Source: Carboxylicivirga sp. M1479 (lineage in GTDB: Bacteria > Bacteroidota > Bacteroidia > Bacteroidales > Marinilabiliaceae). Taken from it: a stretch of DNA of 64,000 nt. The notes under the pieces were generated by a model. The model was given only the letters and a program-made list of their open reading frames with translations. It searched no databases and was not told the origin of the DNA. Shown in pieces: positions 13,318-58,734 of the stretch (positions are counted from its first letter, which is position 1; each line of letters starts with the position of its first letter). Location: the NCBI RefSeq assembly GCF_007097485.1, contig NZ_VKDE01000006.1, positions 1 to 64,000 on the forward strand. Direction: 5' to 3'. A program made the translations under genes and the position numbers.

Positions 13318-13905
13318 ATGCTTAACCTGCAAGCAATAAATATCGAATTACTTAAGCAAGGGCATGAACCTACTTTTGAAGAACTGTACAAATCGGCTTA
13401 TAATGCTTTGTTCTTCTTCTCATTTCAGTATATTGATGAAAAGCCCGATGCAGAGAATCTGGTGCAGGAAACCTTTTTATCCCTATGGACGAATAAAGAA
13501 AGTATTAATTGCAGTAGTTCAAATTCTTTGCGTGCCTGGTTATATTCCACATTAAAAAACAAATGTCTTAATTACCTCAGCAAAGAAAACAGTAAACAGC
13601 AATTTAATTCCTATCAAAAAAACCGACATCAGGCAGATATGCTACTTCTAGGTCAAATGGATATCTCTCAGGTAACATTCGATGAAATTGAACGCCTGTT
13701 ACAAGGTGCCATTAGCGTGATGCCGGAACAATGCCGTAGGGTTTTTCAAATGAGTCGCTTCGATTACTTGTCGAACAAAGAAATTGCTGATAAACTAAAC
13801 ATAAGTGCAAAAGCAGTAGAAGCCAACATGACCAGAGCCCTCAAGCTGGTGCGCATCCATCTAAAAGATTACCTACCTATTGCAGCATTAATTGGGCTCA
13901 TTTGA
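13318..13905 (+). CDS. ECF RNA polymerase sigma factor (SusC/FecR-associated)
   Basis: 195 residues. Region 2 is seen in FEELYKSAYNALFFFSFQYI and DAENLVQETFLSLW, region 4 in MPEQCRRVFQMSRFDYLSNKEIADKLNISAKAVEANMTRA. First gene of a plus-strand sigma-fecR-susC-susD operon that mirrors the minus-strand one at 3-10 kb. It is only weakly similar to that first sigma factor, so the two loci probably answer different substrates. Confidence 0.94.
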   Translation: MLNLQAINIELLKQGHEPTFEELYKSAYNALFFFSFQYIDEKPDAENLVQETFLSLWTNKESINCSSSNSLRAWLYSTLKNKCLNYLSKENSKQQFNSYQKNRHQADMLLLGQMDISQVTFDEIERLLQGAISVMPEQCRRVFQMSRFDYLSNKEIADKLNISAKAVEANMTRALKLVRIHLKDYLPIAALIGLI

Positions 13906-13984
13906 TTTTATTTTAAAAAAATCACTTTCCAATATAGGGGTCGATAAGATCTACCTGTCTTAATACCAGAAGAAGAGAAATACC

Positions 13985-14956
13985 ATGGACAAAACTACTA
14001 TTTGGCAATTGGTTACCAATCAGTTTCCAACTAAGAAGCATCATAAGCTGATGAAAGATGTATTACAATCGCCCCAATTACTAGCTCAATATCAAGAGTT
14101 AAAAAAGTTGTGGTCATTGTCGGCAGCAGAAAATACATTATCCGAACCTGAGGTAAATATAAAGTACCAGCAATTTAAAAAGAACTATCAAAGCATTAAT
14201 GTAAAAAACAATTGGCTAGGAAGCTTTAGCAAATATGCAGCCATGGTAGTCATCATGCTGAGTGTGGCATACGGTTTATGGGTCAATCATACGGAAAAAC
14301 CAACAAGCATGACCGTCACTTATTTTGAATCGGGCACTGGGAGCAACAACTCAATAAAGCTAGCCGATGGCTCTCAAATATGGCTAAATTCTAATTCATC
14401 AATAAATATTCAAGAACAAAGCAACAAACACATTGAAATTCAATTAGTCGGAGAAGCTTTATTTGACATCATCCATAACGAAAAGCGTCAGTTTACAGTA
14501 AATACAGAAGACCTTAAAATAAGAGATCTGGGCACGCGCTTTACCGTTAAAAGTTATCCGAATGATGCACAAATAACGGCTACTTTAGTAGAAGGAGAAA
14601 TTGAAGTTAGCAATCATAAAATACACGAAACCCTATCGCCAGGAGAAAAAATAACATACACCAAAACCAATGGAAAGTATGTTATTGCCGCAGTTGACAC
14701 AACGTATGTAGGAAGCTGGAAAAAAGACAAATTTGAATTCATTGATAAAACACTGAAAGACATCGCGAAGGATCTGGAAAATTACTACGGAGTAAATATA
14801 CAGTTCGAAAATACACAATTGGGCAATGAGCGTTTCACAGGTGTTATTCAAAAAAGAACAAGTATTGAAAAGGTAATGGACATCATCTCCTACTCGGCCG
14901 GGATACAGTACAGCATGAAAGAAACCAAAAATAGCATTGAAATAATGATAAAATAA
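13985..14956 (+). CDS. FecR-family anti-sigma factor
   Basis: 323 residues. One membrane helix (FSKYAAMVVIMLSVAYGLWV, about 80-99) separates a cytoplasmic sigma-binding part from a periplasmic FecR domain (GEALFDIIHNEKRQFTV, LGTRFTVKSY) and a C-terminal DUF4974-like region (DKTLKDIAKDLENYYGVNIQF, RFTGVIQKR). Expected to control the sigma factor 80 bp upstream and to be controlled by the STN domain of the SusC protein downstream. Confidence 0.93.
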   Translation: MDKTTIWQLVTNQFPTKKHHKLMKDVLQSPQLLAQYQELKKLWSLSAAENTLSEPEVNIKYQQFKKNYQSINVKNNWLGSFSKYAAMVVIMLSVAYGLWVNHTEKPTSMTVTYFESGTGSNNSIKLADGSQIWLNSNSSINIQEQSNKHIEIQLVGEALFDIIHNEKRQFTVNTEDLKIRDLGTRFTVKSYPNDAQITATLVEGEIEVSNHKIHETLSPGEKITYTKTNGKYVIAAVDTTYVGSWKKDKFEFIDKTLKDIAKDLENYYGVNIQFENTQLGNERFTGVIQKRTSIEKVMDIISYSAGIQYSMKETKNSIEIMIK

Positions 14957-14959
14957 AAA

Positions 14960-15022
14960 AAGCAGCAACCAGGTCGAAGCGGCTGCTGCTAAATTTTCAT
15001 GAAACTGTTGACGCAGTTTCAT
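14960..15022 (+). promoter_or_regulatory. Two hairpins between fecR and susC
   Basis: AGCAGC..GCTGCT (14961-14989) and ATGAAACTG-TTGAC-(G)CAGTTTCAT (14999-15022) lie one after the other in the 93-bp gap. Neither has a U tract, so they look like mRNA stabilising, processing or attenuation structures rather than a plain terminator. Confidence 0.5.
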
Positions 15023-15049
15023 AATGTTTAATAATAACAGAACAAATTT

Positions 15050-18000
15050 ATGAAAAAAAAGCAAACTAGGCCCTGGTGGAAACACCTAGGCATTGGGAAA
15101 ATTCTACGAATTATGAAAATGGTGCTTGTATTAATGGTAGTGTGCGGATTATCAGTGTCTGCAGCCGGCCTGAGTCAGAATAAAAAACTGACTCTAACGG
15201 TAAAAAATGCCACACTACTCGAAATTTTTAAAGAGATAGAGGCCAACACCGATTTGGGTTTTTTATATAAAAACGACCAAATAGATCAAGGCCAAACCTA
15301 CTCTATTAATGCACAAAACGAAGAAGTGCATGAGGTTTTAAGCACTTTATTAGACGAGGCAGACTACACGTTTACCATTATTGAAAACAATGTGGTGATA
15401 ACCAAAGTACAAAGGCCACTAGAAAATACGGTAGCGCAAGAGCAGCACTCCGTTAATGGTATTGTCACTGATGCCAATGGCGAACCTTTGCCAGGTGTTA
15501 ATGTATACGATAAAGCTAATCCTCAAAATGGAGTAATAACAGGCATTGATGGCAATTACACCATCACAATAGATAATGCCGATGTATCCATTATATTCTC
15601 GTTTATAGGATTCGATGATCAAGAGGTTCAGGTAGCAGGCCGCTCGCAAATAAACATTACTTTGCTCGAAGAAGCCATCGGTATTGAAGAAGTGGTAGTA
15701 ACAGGCTATGGGACCGTCAGTAAAGAAGCCTATACCGGTTCTGCATCTGTGGTAAGCTCTAAAAAGATAGAAGAACGCCCGGTAGCTTCCTTTCAGGATG
15801 TACTAAGAGGTAATTCACCAGGTACGATTGTTACAGGTACAGGACAACCAGGTGCCATGAATAGTGTGCGTCTAAGAGGTATCAGCTCAATGAATGCATC
15901 CAATGCTCCTCTTTATGTGATAGACGGTGTCATTATGGACATCTCCAACATGACTAGTAGTTCGCAATATGCCACCAACCCACTCAACTCTATTAATCCA
16001 TCGGATATTAAGTCATTAACGGTACTTAAAGATGCAGCCTCAGCTTCATTATACGGTTCACGTGGAGCCAATGGTGTAATTGTGATTACCACAAAGCAGG
16101 GACGCGAGACAGACAAGCCCCAATACAGTGTTGACTTCCAAATGGGAATGTCAGAAATTTTTGATGCCAGCAAGCCTGACTTAACCAATAAAGATGAGTT
16201 CATGGAATTATGGTTGGAAGGTGAAATGCACTATCAGGTACGACGTAAAACAGGTTATGATGACTTTTTTAGTGAGATAAAAGAATTGTATGCCGATAAA
16301 GAAGATTACCTGGTGAGTGGCAGAAACTACTACGACTGGCAAACCTATGCCAAGCAGCAGTTCAACAGCCACTTTAAGATTTACAGCCCTAATAATGATG
16401 ACTTTTACGACAACTTTTTTGACGCCGATGGTAACCCTGGTGAAGACTTTGATAAACTAGCGGACACTAATTGGTACGATGAAATTACCCGTATTGCACC
16501 CTTTCAGAAGTTTAACGTATCAACGAACGGAGGAAATAGTCACTTTAATTACTATACGTCTTTGGAATACTTTAACCAGGAAGGTATTATCATTGGTAGT
16601 GGTTTAGAACGTTACTCCTTGCGTACCAACATCTCATCTAAAGCCAAAGGTGCACTCATCCATTGGGGGATTAATAACATGATGTCGTATAGCGACCAGC
16701 AGGGGCCACGATCAAATGCATATGGATATGCCATGCCTCAATACACTGCTTTGGCTATTGCACCTGTTGCTCCGGTTTACCTGGAGGATGGTTCCTACAA
16801 CCTGAATTTACCTAAAGGTGTTAACAATAATCAAAATCCAGTGGCTGTATCCAAGGAAAACTACTACCTAAGACCACAAACGAAAATCATAACATCTGGT
16901 TGGTTGCAAGTAAATTTCACCGACTACCTGAATCTTAACAGCAGAACCAACCTTGATTACACCCATGCGCGTCAACGCAATTGGTATAACAAAGACTTTG
17001 GTGATGGCTTATCGGATAATGGTTCACTATATGAACGTGATGCACGCCGACGTAAAATTAGCAATACCACACTGCTAAATTTCAACAAGAAGTTTAATGA
17101 TCTACATAGTATTAATGGGTATGTTGGCACAGAAGTTGAAGATGTTAACTACCAATACATTGGTGCTTCAGGCGTTAACTTCCCCACCAACAAAACACCT
17201 TATTTAAGTGCCGCTGCAACACCCGAAAGTGTAAGTGGTTCAGGTACCGAATATGGTATGTTTTCAATCCTTTCGGCAGCCAACTATGTTTACAACGATC
17301 GCTATTACGCATCAGCCACCTATCGTGTCGATGAGTCTTCGCGCTTTTCACCGGATAACAGGCGCGGTAGTTTCTGGTCATTATCTGGAGCATGGCGTGT
17401 ATCAGAAGAAGCATTTTTGAGTAATCTTACTGTGCTTGATAACCTGAAGCTTAAAGCAAGTATTGGTACCAACGGAACATTGCCGTCTGAATTATATGCA
17501 TGGCAGTCGCGTTACTCATTTGGTGCCGATTACATGGAAACACCAGGTGCTGTACCTCCGAGCATTGCCAATGAAGATTTAACATGGGAAGAAAACGAAG
17601 TGTATAACATTGGTTTTGAATCACGTTGGTTCAACCGCTTCAATTTGAACATTGAATATTATAACCGAGTGACTAAAAACCTACTTCAAGATCTTCCGAT
17701 ATCAGGTACTACAGGTTTTACTTCTATGCTGGTTAATTCAAATGCCAGTTTAAGCAACCAAGGTGTTGAAATCGATTTCAACGCAGACATCATTCGCACT
17801 TCAAGTTTCAATTGGAACCTGAATGTTAATGCTGCAACCCTTAAGAATGAATTTTCGGATTTAGATAACGACATCATCAGCAGCACACAAATTAAGCGTA
17901 ACGGCGAAAGCTATTACACATGGTACATGCCTGAGTGGGCCGGCATTGATTCTGAAACAGGAGAACAGCAATGGTATGGCAGAGACGAAGAAACAGACGA

Positions 18001-18550
18001 GGAAATTATTGTGAAAGAATTTGACGATGCCGAACGTCGCGTACTGGGTAAAGCATTACCGAAAGTAACAGGTGGTATCTCAAGTAACTTCACTTGGAAA
18101 GGCTTAGATTTGAGTTTCTTATTTACTTACGGAATGGGACATCATGTAATGGATTACACAGGTAGAACAGCAACTAAAAATGATGGTTACCGTGATTACC
18201 GAGGCATTGAACGCAGTCAGTTAGACCGCTGGACACCTGATAACATGAGTGGCACCAACCCTATACGTGTAAACTCATCGGGCACATGGAACCGCTATCG
18301 TTCATCGCGCTACTTGTATAAAGGCGATTACATTAAGTTGAAGAACATCAAGCTACAATACACCATCCCGTCATCGATTACCAATAAATTAAAGTTACGT
18401 AGCGCCAGTATTTTTGCTCAGGCCGAAAACTTATGGGTTGTAACCGAGTTAGACGGTTTTGATCCTGAAATATCGTTGAGTGGTTATCGAAACCCTGATC
18501 AGTATCCTACAGCAACGACATATACTTTTGGTTTAAAGCTTAACTTTTAA
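15050..18550 (+). CDS. SusC/RagA-family TonB-dependent outer-membrane transporter with STN domain
   Basis: 1166 residues: a basic N-terminus then a signal helix ending SVSAAGLSQ, STN domain (about 45-120, LEIFKEIEANTDLGFLYKNDQ), carboxypeptidase-D-like domain (NGIVTDANGEPLPGVNVYDK, about 135-210), VEEVVVTGYG box, plug with APLYVIDGVI and SRGANGVIVITTK, and a long barrel ending TFGLKLNF. Works with the SusD gene 11 bp downstream. The unusual length of the segment before the hydrophobic core (about 20 residues, MKKKQTRPWWKH..) is common in SusC proteins of this order. Confidence 0.95.
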   Translation: MKKKQTRPWWKHLGIGKILRIMKMVLVLMVVCGLSVSAAGLSQNKKLTLTVKNATLLEIFKEIEANTDLGFLYKNDQIDQGQTYSINAQNEEVHEVLSTLLDEADYTFTIIENNVVITKVQRPLENTVAQEQHSVNGIVTDANGEPLPGVNVYDKANPQNGVITGIDGNYTITIDNADVSIIFSFIGFDDQEVQVAGRSQINITLLEEAIGIEEVVVTGYGTVSKEAYTGSASVVSSKKIEERPVASFQDVLRGNSPGTIVTGTGQPGAMNSVRLRGISSMNASNAPLYVIDGVIMDISNMTSSSQYATNPLNSINPSDIKSLTVLKDAASASLYGSRGANGVIVITTKQGRETDKPQYSVDFQMGMSEIFDASKPDLTNKDEFMELWLEGEMHYQVRRKTGYDDFFSEIKELYADKEDYLVSGRNYYDWQTYAKQQFNSHFKIYSPNNDDFYDNFFDADGNPGEDFDKLADTNWYDEITRIAPFQKFNVSTNGGNSHFNYYTSLEYFNQEGIIIGSGLERYSLRTNISSKAKGALIHWGINNMMSYSDQQGPRSNAYGYAMPQYTALAIAPVAPVYLEDGSYNLNLPKGVNNNQNPVAVSKENYYLRPQTKIITSGWLQVNFTDYLNLNSRTNLDYTHARQRNWYNKDFGDGLSDNGSLYERDARRRKISNTTLLNFNKKFNDLHSINGYVGTEVEDVNYQYIGASGVNFPTNKTPYLSAAATPESVSGSGTEYGMFSILSAANYVYNDRYYASATYRVDESSRFSPDNRRGSFWSLSGAWRVSEEAFLSNLTVLDNLKLKASIGTNGTLPSELYAWQSRYSFGADYMETPGAVPPSIANEDLTWEENEVYNIGFESRWFNRFNLNIEYYNRVTKNLLQDLPISGTTGFTSMLVNSNASLSNQGVEIDFNADIIRTSSFNWNLNVNAATLKNEFSDLDNDIISSTQIKRNGESYYTWYMPEWAGIDSETGEQQWYGRDEETDEEIIVKEFDDAERRVLGKALPKVTGGISSNFTWKGLDLSFLFTYGMGHHVMDYTGRTATKNDGYRDYRGIERSQLDRWTPDNMSGTNPIRVNSSGTWNRYRSSRYLYKGDYIKLKNIKLQYTIPSSITNKLKLRSASIFAQAENLWVVTELDGFDPEISLSGYRNPDQYPTATTYTFGLKLNF

Positions 18551-31015: not shown

Positions 31016-31666
31016 ATGCTTAAAAAAGAACGCTATAATAAAGTCATCGACTATTTTCAGGAGCACATGCCAGTAGCTGAAACAGAATTACATTATGGTA
31101 ATCCTTACGAATTGTTAGTCGCCGTTATTCTATCGGCTCAATGTACCGATAAGCGGGTTAACACACTTACTCCGGCCATTTTTGAGCATTATCCACAGCC
31201 CGAGGACATGGCTCAGGCAAGTCCTGAAGATATCTTTGAATTGATACGTTCATGCAGCTATCCTAACAATAAAAGCAAACATTTGGTGGGTATGGCCAAA
31301 ATGTTGACTCAAGATTTTAAAGGCATTGTGCCTGATGATATTAAGGAACTACAAAAACTACCAGGCGTCGGACGTAAAACAGCCAATGTAATTGCTTCTG
31401 TAGTATATGAAAAACCGGCAATGGCAGTTGACACACACGTTTTTAGAGTAGCTGCTCGCATAGGGCTCACCACCAACTCCAAAACACCCCTTGACACCGA
31501 AAAACAATTGGTCAAGTATTTCCCCGAAGAACTACTTCCCATAGCCCATCACTGGCTTATTCTGCACGGTCGTTATGTTTGTTTGGCTCGTAAACCCAAA
31601 TGCTCACGCTGTGGACTAAAAGAATTCTGCCGATTTTACGAAAAAGAAGAATACCGCGTTAAGTAA
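31016..31666 (+). CDS. nth: Endonuclease III (DNA glycosylase/AP lyase)
   Basis: Removes oxidised pyrimidines and nicks the abasic site. 216 residues, standard length. Helix-hairpin-helix LPGVGRKTANVIA with the catalytic Lys121, the essential Asp139 in VDTHVFRVAARIG, and a C-terminal 4Fe-4S cluster with Cys189, Cys196, Cys199 and Cys205 in the canonical C-x6-C-x2-C-x5-C spacing. Starts shortly after the terminator of the receptor gene, so it has its own promoter. Confidence 0.97.
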   Translation: MLKKERYNKVIDYFQEHMPVAETELHYGNPYELLVAVILSAQCTDKRVNTLTPAIFEHYPQPEDMAQASPEDIFELIRSCSYPNNKSKHLVGMAKMLTQDFKGIVPDDIKELQKLPGVGRKTANVIASVVYEKPAMAVDTHVFRVAARIGLTTNSKTPLDTEKQLVKYFPEELLPIAHHWLILHGRYVCLARKPKCSRCGLKEFCRFYEKEEYRVK

Positions 31667-31745
31667 ACTATTTGTGACCAATGGAGCTTTCATTTTAACA
31701 TGGTTTAACGATGAAACACACTTCTTCACTAAAAAAATGTGGACA

Positions 31746-31834
31746 TTTGTAAGGTAGATTTTTTTTCATAGATTTTGGATTTAGTTAACGAACTGAATAA
31801 AAAAAGGACAGGTTTTTCATCTGTCCTTTTTTTT
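31746..31834 (+). ncRNA. Tandem small-RNA unit 1 (promoter to terminator)
   Basis: -33 TTTG (31746-31749), 19-bp spacer, -7 TAGATTTTG (31769-31777), then about 50-60 nt holding TTAGTTAACGAACTGA and ending in the terminator AAGGACAG-GTTTTTCAT-CTGTCCTT plus T8. This copy has AATAAAAAAAGG where the others have TAAGGGTAAGG. The promoter is close to but not exactly the consensus. Transcription is predicted, not shown. Confidence 0.55.
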
Positions 31835-31910
31835 ATGCTTATAATTTGAAAGGCATCTTTTAACAAGCATTAACGCCACTTTAGCTTTCTTCACTAAAAA
31901 AATCCAGACA

Positions 31911-31999
31911 TTTGTACTGTAGATTTTTTTTCATAGATTTTGGATTTAGTTAACGAACTGAATAAGGGTAAGGACAGGTAATCAATCTGTCCTTTTTTT
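31911..31999 (+). ncRNA. Tandem small-RNA unit 2 (promoter to terminator)
   Basis: TTTG at 31911-31914, 19-bp spacer, TAGATTTTG at 31934, the conserved body with GTTAACGAACTGAATAAGGG, and terminator stem AAGGACAG/CTGTCCTT (31970-31994) around GTAATCAAT with T7. Confidence 0.55.
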
Positions 32000-32075
32000 A
32001 TGCTTACAATTTGAAAGGCATCTTTTAACAAGCATTAACGCCACTTCAGTTTTCTTCACTAAAAAAATCCGGACA

Positions 32076-32165
32076 TTTGTAGTGTAGATTTTTTTTCATA
32101 GATTTTGGATTTAGTTAACGAACTGATTAAGGGTAAGGACAGGTTATACAATCTGTCCTTTTTTT
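32076..32165 (+). ncRNA. Tandem small-RNA unit 3 (promoter to terminator)
   Basis: TTTG at 32076-32079, 19-bp spacer, TAGATTTTG, GTTAACGAACTGATTAAGGG, and terminator stem AAGGACAG (32135-32142) with CTGTCCTT around GTTATACAAT, then T-run to 32165. Confidence 0.55.
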
Positions 32166-32241
32166 ATACCTATAATTTTAAAGCGTCCTTTTAACAAGCA
32201 TTAACGCCACTTTAGCTTTCTTCACTAAAAAAATCCGGACA

Positions 32242-32331
32242 TTTGTAGTGTAGATTTTTTTTCATAAATTTTGGATTTAGTTAACGAACTGATTAAGGGT
32301 AAGGACAGGTTATACAATCTGTCCTTTTTTT
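32242..32331 (+). ncRNA. Tandem small-RNA unit 4 (promoter to terminator)
   Basis: TTTG at 32242-32245, spacer of 19, TAAATTTTG in place of TAGATTTTG, body identical to unit 3, and terminator stem AAGGACAG (32301-32308) with CTGTCCTT and T-run to 32331. The cytidylate-kinase-like gene starts 82 bp later. Confidence 0.55.
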
Positions 32332-32412
32332 ATTTTCATTACTGAGCTTATTTTTTTTAATTCAAGTGAAAACATTGTACCTTAAAAACTGTTTTCTAAG
32401 CAAAACTTAACA

Positions 32413-33114
32413 ATGGATAATCTATTTTTAAAATACATGGGTGCTCGTGAGGGCAAACAAGAGAAGCCACTTAAACCAAGTGGTACTCCAGGACCTGTCA
32501 TTACCATTTCAAGAGAATATGGATGCCACGGTAAACGCATAGCACAAAAACTTGCAGAGATATTAAGCGCTAAAAGCACTGCCAGCGGTGAAAATAAAAA
32601 GTGGCGTTGGATTAGTAAAGAAATTCTGGAAGAATCGGCCAAAGAGTTGAAGTTATCATCTACACTGGTTAAAGAATTAAGCGATTATAAACACAGCAGT
32701 TTTTTTAAGGATTTAGCTTTATTCTTCAGTGAAGACTTCTATCCTGGTGATGCCACCATTAAAAACACCATAGCCAAATATATTTACGAAGAGGCCCAGC
32801 AAGGTTACGTAATAGTAGTGGGTAGAGCTGGTGAAGCAGTTACAAAAGATATCGACAGAGCTTTTCACATCAAATTAGAGGCTCCGCTTGATTGGAGATC
32901 AGAGGTAGTTGCCGAAGAAGAGGCAATAAGCTTGGGTGATGCTAAAAAAGAATGCATCGAACAAGATAAACGGAGAGCTCAGTTTCGTGATTACTTTGAA
33001 AAGGGGAAAAAAGACATCGACTTTTTTGATGCCATATTGAACTGCAAAGCATTAAGCGATGATGAAATATTGGAACTGCTGGTAATCATCAGTGAAACAA
33101 GAGGGTTTATTTAA
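32413..33114 (+). CDS. Cytidylate kinase-like family protein
   Basis: 233 residues of the cytidylate-kinase-like P-loop family. N-terminal GPVITISREYGCHGKRIAQKLAE (about 26-48) is the nucleotide-binding segment, in the variant SREYGCHGK rather than the GxxGxGKS of true CMP kinases. Further family segments: WRWISKEILEESAKEL, GYVIVVGRAGEAVTKD and a FHIKLEAPLDWR stretch. Probably transfers phosphate to a nucleotide-like substrate, but family members are not well characterised and Cmk function should not be assumed. It sits just after the tandem RNA units, which may end transcripts ahead of it. Confidence 0.87.
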   Translation: MDNLFLKYMGAREGKQEKPLKPSGTPGPVITISREYGCHGKRIAQKLAEILSAKSTASGENKKWRWISKEILEESAKELKLSSTLVKELSDYKHSSFFKDLALFFSEDFYPGDATIKNTIAKYIYEEAQQGYVIVVGRAGEAVTKDIDRAFHIKLEAPLDWRSEVVAEEEAISLGDAKKECIEQDKRRAQFRDYFEKGKKDIDFFDAILNCKALSDDEILELLVIISETRGFI

Positions 33115-57066: not shown

Positions 57067-58734
57067 TTAATAATATTTTTTATAATTGAGGTAAGCACCA
57101 ATAGCCATTATTAAAGCTACTGCTGTATCAATCTTGTTTAATGCTTTGTGTTTCTCTGCTTTAATGTTGCCAGCACCATCTATATCAGGCACTAAATTTG
57201 AAATACACCATGATAACACTTTATCGTTATTTGTGTGTATCTTATTTTTTAGTGTTAATATTTCTAACTCTTGCATTGGTGGGGTAAATGATTTATAACC
57301 CTGTCCAAATGGTTCACCATCTGCACCAATTTCATGAAAAAATATTTCATAATCTTCTGCTTTCCATCTGTCATAGGCAATATATTGAACATTGTAATCA
57401 ATTAATGATTGCCTAATTACAGTCATTACATAATCTTTATCAATTACATTGCCAGGGGTTAATATTACACCTAATGATTCATAATCAACTGAACCTGCTA
57501 ACTCTTTATCCCTTGCTGTATCTTCAGGAACAAATGACCATGTTTTTGTTTTAATTGAACCATCTTCTTGTGGAAATATTAAAGCAAAACTTGTTAAATC
57601 TCGTGATGATGATAAATCTAATCCACCAAAGCACATTTGACCTTTTAACTCTTCATCATCATATGGTACTTGACCTTCTAACCATTCATCTTGTGTTATA
57701 AATTCACCTGCACCATTCAACCATTGATTTAATAATTTAGTTCTAAATTCTAATTGATATGTGCGTTGATAAATAGCGGTCTTTTTATCTTCCATAAGTC
57801 CCTCTAAACTAATCAGGTATGGGATTGATGGATTGCTTTTAATGTAATTGCTTTCATCTTGCCAATCATCACCTTCATCAAGTTCAAATATGAAGGCTAA
57901 ACTCCTATCATCATCAACTTCACCTGTTAATACACGTGAATAGTATTCATATTGATTATACCCATACCCAACACAGGATAAACCAGCAGTGGTAATTTTT
58001 AAAATGTGCCCCTGTTTTCTATGTCGCATGGAGTTTTTAACCACGTTAACTAATTTATCATCAGGGTGTTCATGTATTTCGTCTGCAATTACAAAAGAAC
58101 CACGAAGGCCATCCATAGACTTGGCATTTTTTCCAAGTGCTAATGCTTTACTATTATTTAGTTTACAGGTGATTTTACTTGCTTCATCCCTTATGAAAAA
58201 GATTTTAAATAATTCAGCTAAATTTCTATCATTCTGAATATATTTAGCCAAATCACCGAGAACTATTTTTGCTTGATCTTGCTTGGTTGCTATTGTATAT
58301 AACTCTTTGCTAACTTCTTCATCTAATAGTAAATGGATAAGTGCAATAACACCCGCAAGTCCTGACTTACCATTTTTTCTGGCTACCTGACAAAAACTTT
58401 CTTTAAATCTCCTATATCCGTTATCATCTACCCAACCAAATAAAGATGCTACAAATGCTATTTGCCATTCCATTAATTTAATGGGTGAACCTTCAACTAT
58501 ATTAAATAATGAGCATAGTTCAATAACTTCATCAGCTAATTCATAATCAAAATGATAAACAAATCTTTCATCTTTCTCTATTCTTTCTAAATCTTGAAAA
58601 TGTCGTGAAGCTGCTAATTTCATTTTCTTACAGCTTTCAACATCACCTGTTAATATTTGTACAAAGTATTTTTCTAATTTATGTGCGCCTTCTGCTTGGT
58701 ATTGAGTAAGATGTTTAATCTTTCTTAATTCCAT
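57067..58734 (-). CDS. Terminase large subunit
   Basis: 555 residues. ATPase: Walker A-like QVARKNGKSGLAGV (about 118-131), Walker B with catalytic Glu in FVIADEIHEHP; C-terminal nuclease: GGLDLSSSRDLTSFALIF (first metal Asp), IAYDRWKAEDYE and the final AVALIMA with an Asp in KIDTAVAL. Packages phage DNA into heads. Starts inside the HNH gene (20-bp overlap). Confidence 0.94.
   Translation of the reverse strand: MELRKIKHLTQYQAEGAHKLEKYFVQILTGDVESCKKMKLAASRHFQDLERIEKDERFVYHFDYELADEVIELCSLFNIVEGSPIKLMEWQIAFVASLFGWVDDNGYRRFKESFCQVARKNGKSGLAGVIALIHLLLDEEVSKELYTIATKQDQAKIVLGDLAKYIQNDRNLAELFKIFFIRDEASKITCKLNNSKALALGKNAKSMDGLRGSFVIADEIHEHPDDKLVNVVKNSMRHRKQGHILKITTAGLSCVGYGYNQYEYYSRVLTGEVDDDRSLAFIFELDEGDDWQDESNYIKSNPSIPYLISLEGLMEDKKTAIYQRTYQLEFRTKLLNQWLNGAGEFITQDEWLEGQVPYDDEELKGQMCFGGLDLSSSRDLTSFALIFPQEDGSIKTKTWSFVPEDTARDKELAGSVDYESLGVILTPGNVIDKDYVMTVIRQSLIDYNVQYIAYDRWKAEDYEIFFHEIGADGEPFGQGYKSFTPPMQELEILTLKNKIHTNNDKVLSWCISNLVPDIDGAGNIKAEKHKALNKIDTAVALIMAIGAYLNYKKYY

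Follow-up and report, generated by a model that had tools for sequence, protein, structure and literature searches.

A tandem array of probable FopS-like small RNA genes whose seeds are predicted to pair with SusC starts in Carboxylicivirga sp. M1479

The window, that is, the whole 64,000-nucleotide stretch of Carboxylicivirga sp. M1479 DNA analysed here, contains an array of tandem genes that probably encode FopS-like antisense RNAs silencing SusC starts. The anatomy of the array, its conservation, synteny and copy number, and the preference of its RNAs for pairing with SusC start sites were established by computation. From the sequence we infer that the genes are transcribed and repress their targets, and an RbpB-like partner, inducing signals and common descent with FopS may be supposed as well. 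In the proposed mechanism, each gene would be transcribed from its own -7 box for the Bacteroidota main sigma factor, upstream of which a regulator may bind a TTAAC-N5-TTAAC repeat. The product would be an RNA of about 80 nt that opens at its 5' end with a U-run and anti-start seed (UUUUUUUUCAUAGAUUUUGGAUUUAGUUAAC), continues with a small hairpin that carries CUGA(A/U)UAA, and closes with an intrinsic terminator. The CAU of the seed would sit on the AUG of SusC mRNAs, with the seed flanks pairing with lysine codons and with the AU-rich stretch before the start; because the seed would cover the AUG and its flanks, the leading gene of polysaccharide-utilisation operons could be blocked at initiation. 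The action would be FopS-like, with a seed re-fitted to the local SusC starts, probably from a distant FopS relative, and the tandem copies may provide a higher dosage. Other copies in the genome have sigma-54-type promoters, so that this silencing could receive signals of two kinds.

The array is intergenic and consists of four units with spacings of 165, 165 and 166 nt, between the following neighbours:

31016..31666, + strand: upstream neighbour nth, endonuclease III type (HhH-GPD)
32413..33114, + strand: downstream neighbour, cytidylate-kinase-like gene of the Cytidylate_kin2 family, which marks the syntenic place

TRF called the array at 31722-32333 (period 165, 3.7 copies, 92% matches), which together with the spacings confirms the four head-to-tail, near-identical copies described in an earlier, sequence-only reading of the window. 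Other points of that reading also stood. It had given each unit its own terminator, and AAGGACAG/CTGTCCTT with a varying loop and a T run was found in all four; a mechanical terminator scan reported three of the four, against 0.4 expected in shuffles. It had seen no coding frame, and the longest open reading frames in the array (frames of at least 20 aa being counted) reach 45 aa, with a TTG start on the minus strand. Its dismissal of CRISPR agrees with 165-nt units that are alike along their whole length, without short repeats and unique spacers. A general dispersed repeat, which it had named as a reason to abandon its view, was not encountered: a 121-base unit query at E <= 0.001 returned from the organism's own genome (5.4 Mb, 130 contigs) only the four units of the array and, on contig C109, two diverged copies. 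In the window, no tRNA genes were found, no Rfam family matched at its own cut-off, and two sigma-70 consensus promoters were found against 3.3 expected. Plasmid matches (seven records, 36-47 nt, E 0.2-0.6) were taken as chance.

Each unit looks like a gene for one intergenic small RNA with a predicted length of about 80 nt and a putative 5' end near TAGATTTTTTTTCAT:

31755..31834, + strand: predicted small RNA 1, seed 31757-31789, terminator 31804-31834
31920..31999, + strand: predicted small RNA 2, seed 31922-31954, terminator 31970-31999
32085..32165/32166, + strand: predicted small RNA 3, seed 32087-32119, terminator 32135-32165
32251..32331, + strand: predicted small RNA 4, seed 32253-32285, terminator 32301-32331

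The seed of unit 4 reads CATAAATTTT in place of CATAGATTTT. In single folds the 5' part of the RNAs is weakly paired, and the fold z-scores of the four RNAs range from -2.5 to -4.1. In an alignment of 39 units, three of the nine pairs of the terminator helix have changed on both sides, and the small hairpin upstream of that helix is paired in every sequence with letters there, with one-sided changes only. The model used below, R1, was built from 39 Marinilabiliaceae units; a further alignment, A1, spanned all classes but aligned poorly over the 3' half, and no model was built from it.

The promoter and the RNA start required a different placement from the one first proposed, which had taken TAGATTTTG as the -7 box, a TTTG as the "-33" element and 50-60 nt as the RNA length. 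The comparison covered 47 distinct related units, many of them closely so, for which 85 nt of upstream sequence was available. At the TAGATTTTG place, where three bases separate TA and TTTG in the window, TAnnTTTG occurs in 13/47 units, TAnnnTTTG in 17/47 and neither in 17/47; TAGATTTTG is thus not kept as a -7 box, and it lies inside the predicted RNA. The TTTG assigned to "-33" belongs to GACATTTG, which is likely to be the -7 box itself, as all 47 units keep NAnnTTTG there, its last base lying 16-24 nt ahead of the end of CAT (first base: 24 C, 15 G, 6 T and 2 A). In the window, GACATTTG ends 9 nt upstream of the U-run. The original promoter is probably wrong on this comparison, and the length of 50-60 nt is not borne out, since a start at the relocated box gives about 80 nt; the most conserved part of the unit is the part that a start at TAGATTTTG would remove. 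Two observations count against reading the relocated box as a promoter, namely that T is the first -7 base in only 6/47 units and that TTG near -33 is present in only 16/47. The putative -7 boxes (each NAnnTTTG in 47/47 related units) and the upstream repeats, which are possible regulator sites, lie as follows:

31695..31709, + strand: direct repeat TTAAC-N5-TTAAC, unit 1
31742..31749, + strand: -7 box GACATTTG, unit 1
31860..31874, + strand: direct repeat TTAAC-N5-TTAAC, unit 2
31907..31914, + strand: -7 box GACATTTG, unit 2
32025..32039, + strand: direct repeat TTAAC-N5-TTAAC, unit 3
32072..32079, + strand: -7 box GACATTTG, unit 3
32191..32205, + strand: direct repeat TTAAC-N5-TTAAC, unit 4
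32238..32245, + strand: -7 box GACATTTG, unit 4

The form TTAAC-N5-TTAA[CG] was found at -75..-72 from the end of CAT in 42/47 related units and a relaxed form in 46/47; its background is 7 per 670,696 strand-bases of the organism's own genome, four of these being the array's.

A single scan of named genomes gave 28 loci with a downstream kinase, at which conservation was followed. At 26 of them the same kinase gene is preceded by units on its own strand (the exceptions are L077 and L083), with a distance of 65 to 320 nt from the nearest unit to the kinase gene. Two or more units occur at 17 of the 28, these unit counts being lower bounds where a contig begins or ends next to the array. Arrays at or near contig ends were observed in G002:C106, G004:C63, G007:C38, G008:C39 and C43, and G009:C143 and C262. 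The 28 loci belong to Carboxylicivirga, to other genera of the Marinilabiliaceae, and to genomes labelled as Bacteroidales or Marinilabiliaceae. All 14 genus genomes contain DNA matching the unit at E <= 0.01. The R1-type class is narrow, because model R1 with strict filters reached E <= 0.001 in only 5 of 149 Bacteroidales genomes, and three of the five belong to the organism's own family. The 26/28 synteny, the compensatory changes in the terminator helix and the -7-like box in 47/47 units support the earlier proposal of separately terminated, trans-acting small RNAs.

The seed of the array RNAs points to SusC mRNAs as targets, its reverse complement containing ATGAAAAAAAA. Pairing was computed as the duplex energy of the unit-3 seed against -40..+30 around each start, for the duplex alone. 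Of 47 matches to TIGR04056, the 43 that pass its cut-off formed the SusC set (two of them lie in the window); the control set was 218 other genes from 15 stretches, 12 of 230 having been dropped as longer than 850 aa. Mean energies were -18.9 kcal/mol for SusC and -12.8 kcal/mol for controls (43 vs 218, p 3e-13), the 43 SusC genes being mutual relatives with starts picked by rule. With ATGAA starts only, the means were -19.5 (35) and -13.9 (66), respectively (p 6e-8), and the effect was kept with 40 non-redundant starts, with STN-type (14) and short (29) SusC genes taken apart, and with AT-rich controls (161). The z-score of SusC start pairing was -8.1 against 40 shuffled seeds and -14 against shuffled starts with the ATG kept. 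The same SusC preference as with the unit 3 seed was obtained with the unit 4 seed, the C109 seed and those of two sigma-54-type copies; the FopS consensus seed has none in the same genome (p 0.19; ATGAA p 0.95; z -2.9). Nine other offsets in the same genes gave means of -12.4 to -13.9, so that the energy peaks only at the start, and the AUG is paired with the seed CAU in 33/43 SusC genes and 92/218 other genes. Genes following SusC (42 pairs) had a mean of -14.5, SusC being better (p 3e-6); with the unit-3 seed these following genes were still better than other genes (p 0.001), and with three other seeds tried they had no such preference. The 5% mark of the controls was passed by 19/43 SusC genes and 4/42 following genes. 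No mRNA site with a 22-nt complement was found when up to three mismatches were allowed. Given this start-specific preference, pairing with the starts of SusC mRNAs is more likely than the protein titration suggested earlier. One candidate target lies in the window itself:

15044..15060, + strand: candidate target, SusC start region AAATTTATGAAAAAAAA, 17 nt fully complementary to the unit 4 seed

The SusC gene concerned occupies 15050-18550, and the seed-model match to it spans 15043-15060 on the other strand. This start is the second-best seed match in the window outside the array, the best lying inside a gene at 57326-57346. Consecutive genes at 13318-18550 encode an ECF sigma factor, a FecR-type protein and an STN-type SusC. 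The best duplex of all, -33.3 kcal/mol, was formed by the unit-3 seed with the SusC start on C42.

The closest described relative of the units appears to be FopS (RF04319). According to PMC11697453, FopS is a paralogous sRNA family of Bacteroides thetaiotaomicron with 14 copies there and 12-15 across Bacteroides; its RNAs are induced by bile salts and pair with the susC mRNA start region to block translation, and RbpB binds FopS and opposes its SusC repression. Section 8 of the same paper reports conservation within Bacteroidaceae. The earlier reading, which knew of no described family that matches, overlooked FopS: all four units align to RF04319 end to end (1-71) on the right strand, though the match stays below the Rfam cut-off, with scores of 21.4-25.0 bits (E 0.19-0.99) against a gathering score of 56. 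These sub-threshold matches come from permissive settings, at which 36 matches had E <= 5. RF04319 matches all 14 genus genomes at E <= 1, none over the cut-off and the best at 37.2 bits; at the same loose limit it also matches Bacillus subtilis and Methanocaldococcus jannaschii, and the weak genus matches may therefore be chance. An intermediate score of 38.6 bits was found inside the organism's own family. Among 119 Bacteroidales genomes, E <= 0.001 was reached in 26 and the cut-off passed in 19; these 19 genomes carry 19 different family labels, and FopS proper thus seems to extend past Bacteroidaceae. In the reverse direction, R1 gave 26 matches at E <= 1 on 29 FopS-type loci of other genomes, 20 of them at the RF04319 gene place in 19 of the 29 loci, with six matches elsewhere and ten loci missed. 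The likeness, as judged by these models, is two-way but faint; the units are not RF04319 members as defined, but are FopS-like and probably homologous to FopS.

The likeness takes in many copies per genome (FopS 14; here 11 and one candidate), a 5' seed beginning with a U-run and CAU, a 3' terminator, a -7 box of probable main-sigma type (TAnnTTTG in FopS; NAnnTTTG in the array, with T as first base in 6/47), and SusC start pairing, shown for several FopS targets (PMC11697453) and computed here. The FopS seed, R1', and the array seeds have invariant letters in common, and the similarity continues past the anti-start part (G.UUUA..GUUAA). In contrast to FopS, the array seed departs at several positions after CAU and fits other SusC starts; the RNA is about 80 nt long rather than 65-70 nt, and it has an extra small hairpin where FopS has an unpaired 5' seed and then the terminator hairpin. 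The tandem arrangement of four with an upstream TTAAC repeat, and the sigma-54-type promoters of part of the copies, are further differences. Upstream of the -7 box, 15 of 24 FopS units (L091-L120, Bacteroidales RF04319 loci) have a palindrome like ATGTT-N4-AACA(T), 13 at -45..-49 and two at -79 from the end of CAT, which is a possible operator of FopS genes. Among other families, BTnc231 (RF04180) had a best E of 0.14, against 0.19 for FopS, with 20.0 bits on unit 1 and matches to three units on the right strand. Its 5' end UUUUUUUCAUAGAGAUUUAGAUUUAAGGUUA resembles the array seed, but its cut-off is 80.4 bits and it is twice as long; it is kept as a neighbour. GibS (RF04182) scored 19.9 bits on unit 3 and 19.2 on the other strand, below its cut-off of 115; it has an R1-type 5' seed in common with FopS (PMC7366714), as well as an R2 seed and a PM2 promoter. 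OmrA/B, Qrr and LhrC, named in PMC11697453, have redundant paralogous copies too but belong to other phyla and were compared by copy redundancy only. Arrc11 (E 0.05, one unit only) and AgrB (E 0.076, one unit, other strand) had lower E values than FopS and were set aside as chance.

Copies outside the array fall into more than one promoter class. In the organism's own genome, R1 at E < 0.01 matched 12 places: the four array units, a pair on C109, one on C42 and five elsewhere, with a promoter and a terminator present at 11 of the 12. The C42 match (C42:62663-62749; L131, L154) is antisense to a SusC start, with a hairpin and T-run following on that strand, and is a candidate further copy. The two C109 copies are of the same class as the array, and upstream of the five elsewhere stands TGGYAY-N5-TTG, spaced so as to give the same RNA start. 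The sigma-54 consensus is TGGCAC-N5-TTGC, and one protein in the genome has a sigma-54 DNA-binding domain. Among exact TTTTTTCATAGATTTGGGTT seeds of the 14 genus genomes, TGGYAY-N5-TTG stands 10-20 nt before the T-run in 50 of 58, in 13 of the 14 genomes, and a backward-read control of the element gave 0. Such seeds lie in the own genome at C54:95725-95953, C65:156476-156526, C65:181106-181156 and C73:17259-17309, and further loci are L035, L036, L040, L041, L048, L053, L054 and L089; inspection by eye of genes beside the sigma-54-type copies gave no consistent activator. Another class, with CATAGATTTGGATTTTGAGTTAAGGTTAG or CATAAGTTAGGGTTAAGGTTAGG seeds and often two units about 125 nt apart (L026, L028, L030, L032, L037, L047, L052), had neither NAnnTTTG nor a sigma-54-type element by pattern search. 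PMC11697453 names different sigma factors for FopS as a possibility only, and RpoN is unmentioned in the passages searched of PMC11697453, PMC7366714 and PMC10994844. The one literature collection searched held no report on Carboxylicivirga small RNAs and none on RpoN with Bacteroidetes, sigma-54 and sRNA.

A FopS-like function could also have arisen without common descent, if RNAs covering AU-rich ATGAAAAAA starts converge on UUUUUUCAU and the remaining FopS likeness is chance plus terminator. Convergence would account for the sub-threshold Rfam score, for a seed that differs after CAU while the FopS seed lacks a SusC-start preference here, and for the loose matches of the FopS model to B. 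subtilis and M. jannaschii. It fits less well with a similarity reaching into G.UUUA..GUUAA beyond the anti-start part, with intermediate FopS scores in the family (38.6 bits) and genus (37.2), or with a gene plan, copy number and target class that are the same as those of FopS, and we regard it as unlikely while giving it some weight. The RNAs may instead serve mainly as sponges of an RNA-binding protein, for example the single RRM_1 protein of the genome (a 110 aa open frame), in which case their SusC-like sequence would be mimicry of the natural sites of the protein. The many RNA copies and the binding of FopS by Bacteroides RbpB (PMC11697453) are in line with a sponge, but the CAU on the AUG in 33/43 SusC genes and the energy peak at the start indicate complementarity rather than mimicry, which leaves the sponge improbable.

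The model first put forward, with 50-60 nt RNAs starting from TAGATTTTG and titrating a protein, draws on the multi-copy, terminated units and on TAnnTTTG at the TAGATTTTG box in 13/47 relatives. That motif is not kept in the other 34, whereas the upstream box is kept in 47/47, the sigma-54-type copies yield the same upstream RNA start, and the most conserved part would be cut off; the model is thus very improbable. The kinase synteny in 26/28 loci would suit a cis-acting leader or attenuator of the kinase gene, yet the distance to that gene varies over 65-320 nt, every unit ends in a terminator, and other contigs carry copies as well, including two of the same class on C109, so that such a role is scarcely credible.

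The reading as start-covering, FopS-like antisense RNAs is less exotic than the sequence-only reading had hoped. The FopS control layer, recently described, is its known part, which a re-fitted seed and new promoters extend. If the arrays act like FopS, post-transcriptional silencing of glycan importers would reach well past Bacteroidaceae, the sigma-54-type promoters would add another type of input, and the fit of seeds to SusC starts could be read from sequence in many genomes. On a broader reading, for and against which we see equal chances, start-covering anti-SusC sRNAs would be general in Bacteroidales, with seeds co-evolving per lineage, and in Carboxylicivirga and its kin their transcription would be divided between two machineries, the main sigma factor for a tandem array with its own upstream regulator site and sigma-54 for a further set of copies. 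Two unrelated signals would then shut down polysaccharide import.
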